Under the pieces are notes generated by a model. That model was not told the origin of the DNA. It searched no databases and saw only the letters and a list, made by a program, of their open reading frames with translations. From Glandiceps talaboti (lineage: Eukaryota > Hemichordata > Enteropneusta > Spengelidae), in assembly GCF_964340395.1 (NCBI RefSeq), contig NC_135554.1, positions 4,282,975-4,346,974 of the forward strand: a stretch of DNA of 64,000 nucleotides. The letters run 5' to 3'. Positions 27,801 to 30,800 of this stretch are shown here, one piece after another. Made by a program: the position numbers and the translations under genes. The stretch's first letter is position 1; the number at the start of each line of letters is the position of its first letter.

Positions 27801-30800
27801 ATGAATGGTTAGTTATAGATATATAAAGTGTACCAGATGTTGATGAATGGTTAGTTATAGATATATAAAGTGTACCAGATGTTGATGAATGGTTAGTTAT
27901 AGACAGACAGGTATAGACTATAGGACAGGACTCCCTATGTTCACTACAGAGGTACTATAGGACAGGACTCCCTATGTTCACTACAGAGGTACTATAGGAC
28001 AGGACTCCCTATGTTCACTACAGAGGTACTATAGGACAGGACTCCCTATGTTCACTACAGAGGTACTATAGGACAGGACTCCCTATGTTCACTACAGAGG
28101 TACTATAGGACAGGACTCCCTATGTTCACTACAGAGGTACTATAGGACAGGACTCCCTGTGGTATAAACGAAATATGACAGGACTCCCTATGTTCACTAC
28201 AAAGGTTCTGTAGGACAGGACTCCCTGTGGTATAAAGGCAATATGACAGGACTCCCTATGTTGCAAGGGAATATAAGACTCCCTATATTGTAAAGCAATA
28301 TGATAAGACTCCCTAAAAACTTCATTGTTTCAACCAGTAGATTTCCATCAGTGGACAGATTCATAGATAATACTGCCTATTTTTCACATTTGACCAGTTA
28401 CTTTTACAATAGTTCCATCCCTGATATTAGGGGATTTGACAAAAGTTGGTATAAATAGATGTAACATAAATCATGGAACCTGACTAGACTACTAGGTAAC
28501 ACAAGTTTTTGTTTGTTTTTAGTAATTGCACACCTTTCATTTGTGTATATAGGTACTGTCTTTAGTAATTGCACACCTTTCATTTGTGTATATAGGTACT
28601 GTCTTTAGTAATTGCACACCTTTCATTTCTGTATATAGGTACTGTCTTTAGTAATTGCACACCTTTCATTTGTGTATATAGGTACTGTCCAGAGTGTAAG
28701 AATGATGATACTGCTGTCGTCAAGGCAGGAGAAAAGTTAAAAGAGAGCAAGAAGAAATCTAAGATGGCATCTGCATCATCTTCATCAAGTCGAGATTGGG
28801 GCAAGGTACGTCAATCAATGTTTTTGTGAAAATCATTTGATTGGTAGATGAGTGTATTAATGGATTGGCAGGTGGGTGGTTGATGGATGAGTGGGTGATG
28901 GATAGATGGATGGAGGGAGGGATATGGATTGATGGATGGATTGGAAGGTGAGTTGATGGATGGATGGGTAGGGTTCATAGTTGGGTTTATGGATGGGTTG
29001 ATAACTAGATGCAAGTATGATGATCAGCACTGGGCAATGATATGTAATGATTTCAATGCCTTTCATGAGCCTCAGAAACTTGTGTCTCTGACTTGCACAT
29101 CTCCAGATCACATAATTACCAGAAGTGTCTTTTCGTCTGAGAAATAAACTCAAAATTAAAAGACAGAAGATCTGTCTGGAGAACACCACACCCCCTTGTG
29201 ATACATCCCATGTGATAGATGTCAATATAATATACATGATATGTGTGCAATGGTGTGCTAGATGTCTTTGTTAGATATTCCATAGTGTAGGGACTTATTT
29301 ACCACACCACTTCTAGTGTGATGCAGTTAAAATGTGTGACTAGAAACTTGTATCTGTGAAATATGTGCATAATATTTGTTTTTTCTAACTATTTATTGTT
29401 TAAATAATGTATTTGCTGATGGTCAAAGGGAGAAGTACAAAAGTGGGAGCGTTTTCAAATTATCCAGTTTTAGTAGTATGGTCCCAAATTTTGTTTTATT
29501 TTGATGTTTAAACTTTGACTCAATCTATACAGGGTATGGCATGTGTTGGACGAACAAAAGTGTGTACCATTGTACCATCCAATCACTTTGGAGAGATCCC
29601 TGGAGTTCACGTCGGACAGCTGTGGAAATTTAGAGTCCAGGTAAGTTGTTGATTTAATCAACAATACCCAGTGTTAGCCCTATCAAGTTGATGTACATGT
29701 ATGTACATTTAGTAGTGTTAACCCCTATAATCTGAGCAGTTTGATAAACTGGACACCTTGTTTATGTAAACTGTGATATTTGAATTACATGTAGTATGGT
29801 GAAGTTCAATAGATACACAGGTAAGTAGTTACACAGTTGGATAGATTTATACCCTGGGAGACAATTGATAGTTAGATGCAAGTATGATGATTAGCACTGG
29901 GCAATGATATGTAATGATTTCAATGCCTTTCATGAGCCTCAGAAACTCATGCCTCTGACTTGCACTCACAAAAGTGTACCCCCCCCCCCCCCCCCCCCCA
30001 AAAAAAAATGTCTGTAATTGCACTGATCCTGTAGATTTGAACTGTTTGCTCCCAGAAATAGAAGTAATCATATATCCCCCAATAAACTCTTAACATTACT
30101 ATTTTGGTAGGATTTTAATCAAAATGTATAAATTGACAATTATTTCATTACAAACTGCACTTTTTATGGACATTGAGTAGTATTTTTGAGATCTCCTAAA
30201 ACAGACGAGGGGAATCTAGTATAGCTTGCATACATTATCACACCTTTTTCCATAGTTGTGATGGCAACCCTGGTGAAATGAATACCATGGCAACCCAGAT
30301 GTTACTTAACTTCCTTGCAAACCAAATACTGAAGTCTCTTAGTCAGTGTGGTATTTTGTCTTTAGTAATGTCAATGGAATTCTAACAATATAGTTATTGT
30401 GTCATATTTTACCTTCTAGGTTAGTGAAGCTGGTGTACACCGCCCTCATGTGGCAGGTATCCATGGACGTGAAAATGAAGGTGCATACTCCATTGTATTG
30501 TCAGGTGGATATGAAGATGATGTGGTAAGTGTCACAAATCTAGAACTATGAAGATGATGTGGTAAGTGACACATCTAGAACTATGCAAGTATGATGATCA
30601 GCACTGGGCAATGATATGTAATGATTTCAATGCCTTTCATGAGCCTCAGAAACTCATGTCTCTGACTTGCACATCTCCAGATAAACTTCAAATGTGTTTC
30701 AGCAGCAGTGTACTGTATATTGTCCAATGATGTGCTTCCACCTGAGAAGTCAACACCAAATCAAATAACTGGAAGAATGGTTTGATGAGCAGCGCCCTCT

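Follow-up and report, generated by a model that had tools for sequence, protein, structure and literature searches.

The 64-kb window analysed here (the whole stretch of DNA under study, from the hemichordate Glandiceps talaboti) contains a UHRF1 gene with an 88-nt sequence in each of three consecutive introns, all on the plus strand (Table 1). The host was identified from the joined exons between and after these introns: their peptide, in which some exon edges were set by eye, scores 181.8 bits with the Pfam SAD_SRA domain and matches UHRF1 chains in the PDB with an E-value of 1.7e-105. All three introns are of the GT..AG type and, from the reading frame, in phase 0. An earlier interpretation made from the letters alone (the sequence-only reading) had placed the three copies at these positions, one per intron of UHRF1, and both location and host are borne out; its numbering of the introns as 7, 8 and 9 is consistent with the reading frames, the count having been taken from these and not exon by exon. 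A UHRF1 exon end with its 5′ splice site (GAAGATGATGTGGTAAGTG...) occurs twice in tandem immediately before copy 3 (window 30513-30583), which yields two candidate sites for 5′ splicing, separated by 37 nt. At window 28514-28728, units of 43 bp form a tandem array that extends into the preceding UHRF1 exon and may contain copies of that exon's 3′ splice site.

Table 1. Positions of the snoRNA copies, their elements, their flanks and the neighbouring UHRF1 exons in the window
Feature	Position	Strand	Basis
snoRNA copy 1, 88 nt, in UHRF1 intron 28806-29532	29010..29097	+	sequence
snoRNA copy 2, 88 nt, in UHRF1 intron 29641-30419	29877..29964	+	sequence
snoRNA copy 3, 88 nt, in UHRF1 intron 30525-31233	30584..30671	+	sequence
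Box C ATGATGA (nt 8-14)	copy 1 29017..29023; copy 2 29884-29890; copy 3 30591-30597	+	sequence
D′ guide AGCACTGGGCA	copy 1 29026..29036; copy 2 29893-29903; copy 3 30600-30610	+	11/11 complementary to eukaryotic LSU rRNA
Predicted D′ box ATGA	copy 1 29037..29040; copy 2 29904-29907; copy 3 30611-30614	+	aligned to CUGA of snR76/SNORD88 consensus
Box D CTGA (nt 79-82)	copy 1 29088..29091; copy 2 29955-29958; copy 3 30662-30665	+	sequence
UHRF1 exon (SRA domain) between copies 1 and 2	29533..29640	+	Pfam/PDB searches of joined exons
UHRF1 exon (SRA domain) between copies 2 and 3	30420..30524	+	Pfam/PDB searches of joined exons
Decayed 3′ flank of copy 1, homologous to copy 3 flank	29112..29283	+	68.3% (110/161 ungapped columns)
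Decayed 3′ flank of copy 3, homologous to the flank of the C8 copy and partly to that of copy 1	30679..30901	+	73.5% (155/211 ungapped columns)

Each copy has a box C of the form RUGAUGA and a box D CUGA near its ends, joined by a terminal stem (TGCAAG/CTTGCA), the features by which box C/D snoRNAs are recognized. Boxes and stem are perfect in all three, as had been described. Only four of the 88 columns vary (nt 16, 72, 73 and 76), and the identity previously noted for nt 17-70 extends through nt 71. A pattern for the 71-nt core matches three times in the window and never in 100 shuffles, while a generic scan of both strands that required boxes C and D plus five or more base pairs of terminal stem returns exactly the three copies in the 64 kb, against three hits in total from 20 mononucleotide shuffles. 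The fold energies of the copies are unremarkable (z-scores of -0.81, -1.07 and -0.71). The sequences are best read as box C/D snoRNA genes, one per intron.

Rfam finds nothing in the window at its curated gathering thresholds. In E-value mode, with 1.8 kb searched, the snR76 model (RF01209) scores 40.5 bits for copies 3 and 2 (E 6.6e-7 and 6.8e-7) and the SNORD88 model (RF00604) 39.4 bits for copy 1 (E 8.3e-7). The covariance search that the sequence-only reading had proposed thus yields matches at 39-41 bits, but below the curated cut-offs of 55 for snR76 and 46 for SNORD88; since neither gathering score is reached, we describe the copies as divergent homologues and assign no family membership. 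The same guide, AGCACUGGGC, lies directly before D′, in the register of both the snR76 and the SNORD88 consensus, in these three copies and in two further ones found elsewhere in the genome, on C8 and C1 (see below), which score 40.7 and 40.0 bits with the snR76 model. Counting back from D′, the two consensus sequences and the present copies all carry a G at the fifth nucleotide, and methylation is accordingly predicted at one and the same C. The sequence-only reading had not recognized the guide, and suspected that the conserved one lies further inside than the bases next to box D; that suspicion was right, since the conserved guide is the D′ guide at nt 17-27 and not the D guide, and it is best read as the known, ancient SNORD88/snR76 type. 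Membership of this group makes the finding less novel than first thought: on the best reading, what is new is the host gene and the local expansion, the guide itself being already known.

Comparison with the members of this group shows both what is retained and what differs. SNORD88A/B/C (HBII-180A/B/C) share with the present copies the C/D boxes, the terminal stem and the guide beside D′ in the same register, but here the host is UHRF1, the middle is AU-rich and D′ reads AUGA instead of CUGA. The three human genes SNORD88A/B/C have a single host, C19orf48. The available text of one report counts three human SNORD88 paralogues (PMC10911272), and that of another places HBII-180C with C19orf48 exons 2-3 (PMC4583369). 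Fungal snR76 has the same guide and register and similar internal segments (CAAUGC and GCCU-AGAAA), although its middle is shorter. Chicken GGgCD10, as far as the accessible part of its description goes (PMC2653536), carries an 11-nt 5′ guide for 28S-C-3190 and has snR76 and HBII-180a/b/c as homologues; it also has a 13-nt 3′ guide for 18S-A-429, whereas no D-side target was found here in the available rRNA.

The D′ guide (AGCACUGGGCA) pairs at 11 of 11 positions with eukaryotic LSU rRNA UGCCCAGUGCU. In each of three LSU contigs (L017, L018 and L019), nt 17-27 meet TGCCCAGTGCT with no mismatch and no G-U pair, at one occurrence per stretch tested and with no occurrence in 500 dinucleotide shuffles of each. 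The target is genuine eukaryotic LSU sequence: the contigs come from bacterial genome bins, none of them from the species of the window, and Rfam identifies eukaryotic LSU in all three. They were fetched with a 36-base 28S pattern containing GCCCAGTGCT, ten of the eleven target bases, so that their agreement with one another is by construction. The suggestion that the target may not be rRNA is not supported, given this full complementarity. It falls at the site equivalent to human Cm3680, the human nucleotide number being taken from papers and not computed. SNORD88A/B/C are assigned to LSU C3680 in the available text of two reports (PMC10911272; PMC5597630), the chicken homologue to 28S-C-3190 (PMC2653536, in the part accessible), and Neurospora CD12 to 26S-Cm2159 through its D′ guide (PMC2780460, likewise).

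The genome of the window itself contains three diverged LSU fragments in which the target stretch differs at one, one and two positions; in the search for an intact 28S, one DNA query returned these three fragments only and another returned nothing. These short fragments (L013, L014 and L015), which have no Rfam match at the gathering threshold, surround the same LSU stretch at three scattered places of the genome and might be a dispersed 28S-derived element. In L017, positions 1-560 are eukaryotic LSU rDNA in a tubeworm endosymbiont bin, and the contig leaves the usual LSU sequence after CTCTCTTA, a point near the R2 insertion site.

Expressed C/D snoRNAs could also have another main job, with a D-side guide or nt 36-71 acting on a different target and the D′ match a relic. 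In favour of this, nt 36-71 vary no more than the guide does across the three UHRF1 copies, and from about nt 45 onwards the segment is similar to the consensus of fungal snR76. In addition, 14 base pairs, three of which are G-U, are possible between nt 62-75 of copy 1 and the SSU portion of L019; this duplex leaves a gap of 3 nt to box D, and copy 3 has no such entry among its listed duplexes. Against this, the UHRF1 copies differ from one another in the D-side guide, which finds at most seven Watson-Crick pairs adjacent to D in the available rRNA (roughly the first two-thirds of the LSU, and the SSU beyond its first part), while the D′ guide is invariant in all five genomic copies. We consider such a different main role very unlikely.

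Accessory pairing has been proposed for xtSNORD88, according to the available text of that study (PMC8522698). When extra pairing of the internal segment with LSU near the target was scored, 78, 53 and 207 of 300 shuffles did as well as the best duplexes of copy 3, and 36, 153 and 112 of 300 as well as those of the C1 copy (L017, L018 and L019, in that order). In the snR76 consensus, all nine bases of CAAUGCUUU can pair in L017 and L018, at -46 to -37 relative to the target, and eight of nine within a longer alignment in L019; these scores do not rise above the shuffles (122, 131 and 232 of 300), nor do those of the Afu_513 consensus (276, 277 and 296 of 300). Since shuffled sequences so often match the duplex scores, accessory pairing of the internal segment is unsupported here. 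For the SNORD88 consensus, CUUUGACA pairs with LSU just downstream of the target (from +4 onwards) and lies within the best duplex in two of the three LSUs, at scores reached by 106 and 11 of 300 shuffles; with the third LSU another duplex is best (249 of 300 shuffles).

A DNA search of the 590-Mb genome finds the snoRNA at five places, namely the three UHRF1 copies, C8:21716584 (98% identity) and C1:1248663 (95%). An exact pattern of box C plus guide finds the same five, with none for the reversed control. Counts from such genome searches can be lower bounds for repeats; the hundreds of copies that the sequence-only reading had named as the mark of an abundant repeat are not seen by either search, and five copies do not make an abundant repeat. 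Boxes C and D and the guide are intact in all five, and the six pairs of the terminal stem are all kept in the UHRF1 copies and the C8 copy, with five of six in the C1 copy. The C1 copy is flanked on either side, on its own strand, by an exon that matches the BORCS6 domain (40.3 and 35.2 bits, cut-off 35), which places it in an intron of BORCS6. About 3 kb upstream of the C8 copy (L007 6001-6088), a frame on the same strand has a HEAT match of 17.3 bits against a cut-off of 23.5, which makes a HEAT-repeat gene probable at a score below the cut-off; the gene is perhaps PPP4R1. No report of UHRF1 or of BORCS6 as a snoRNA host is apparent in the titles and abstract openings of the open-licence literature, and a search of that literature for snoRNA hosts in amphioxus was empty.

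The surroundings of the copies tell of their history. The sequence-only reading had similarity stop almost exactly at the stem, which holds nearly for copy 2, with no significant flank homology; copies 1 and 3, by contrast, remain identical for 11 bases past the stem, and their flanks then continue as homologous but diverged sequence. The flanks of the five copies were compared in 20 pairs, and in two of these, both downstream, the score lies above every one of 300 shuffles: copies 1 and 3, and copy 3 and the C8 copy. The other 18 do not reach this level (best, 17 of 300). An earlier flank run had placed one of six pairs above all 200 shuffles, and a run under laxer scoring two of six above all 100. 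In both homologous pairs the snoRNAs are identical at 86 of 88 positions (98%) and the alignable flanks at 68-74%, which suggests that the duplications are old and that constraint held the snoRNA while the sequence around it drifted. The identity of the copies could instead reflect recent duplication or gene conversion and not selection, an explanation compatible with real snoRNAs and favoured by the 11 identical bases past the stem. It is very unlikely, however, given the divergence of the flanks, the same guide kept in copies on other contigs, and a likeness to fungal and vertebrate models that points to long-term selection. A mobile or dispersed repeat without function, such as a snoRNA retroposon, is extremely unlikely. 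In its favour, the five copies are spread over three contigs, and the likeness of copy 3 to the C8 copy continues into the 3′ flank, with none detectable in the 5′ flank. But such an element would show many, mostly decayed copies where there are only five intact ones, the copy-3 flank as a genome query matches only itself, and the flanks have decayed while the snoRNA has not.

We therefore favour, with a probability of about 0.9, three intron-encoded box C/D snoRNA genes, homologues of SNORD88/snR76, that would methylate the equivalent of LSU Cm3680 from within UHRF1 introns. The triplet is real and probably functional. The snoRNAs would be released from spliced UHRF1 introns and assemble into a C/D snoRNP by way of their terminal stem and of boxes C and D. 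The D′ guide would then position fibrillarin on the LSU rRNA, where the third C of GCCC faces the guide nucleotide five positions before D′ and is the predicted site of 2′-O-methylation. In the 28S of this species the predicted position is the third C of GCCCAGUGCU, corresponding to human 28S Cm3680 and to yeast 25S Cm2197. The UHRF1 copies probably arose by duplication within UHRF1, and selection may be what keeps the snoRNA while the flanks decay. The copies begin 204, 236 and 59 nt into their introns, and 435, 455 and 562 nt separate their ends from the 3′ splice site. This distance, greater than is usual for vertebrate C/D snoRNAs, which mostly lie close to that site, counts against the favoured explanation, as do the Rfam scores below the cut-offs, the diverged LSU fragments of this genome and the unremarkable fold energies. 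The circular retrieval of the LSU contigs and the weak HEAT match leave the odds of the SNORD88/snR76 identification unchanged, since the Rfam match, the register and the published target are independent of both.

UHRF1 is a gene of DNA-methylation maintenance and S phase. A three-copy host of this kind might tie the dose of one LSU 2′-O-methyl mark to the proliferation programme in this lineage, an idea that we regard as speculative and unlikely. In human fibroblasts, according to the available text of one study, depletion of SNORD88A/B/C leads to less proliferation and a higher S-phase fraction (PMC10911272). The locus would place an ancient rRNA methylation guide in the protein-coding host UHRF1, for which the titles and abstract openings searched give no earlier report. 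It links the fungal, the vertebrate and the present form by sequence and register, the last being one that the Rfam models miss at their cut-offs, and it lets a guide be seen that has multiplied inside one gene and is also present in others, even as the intron sequence around it decays.
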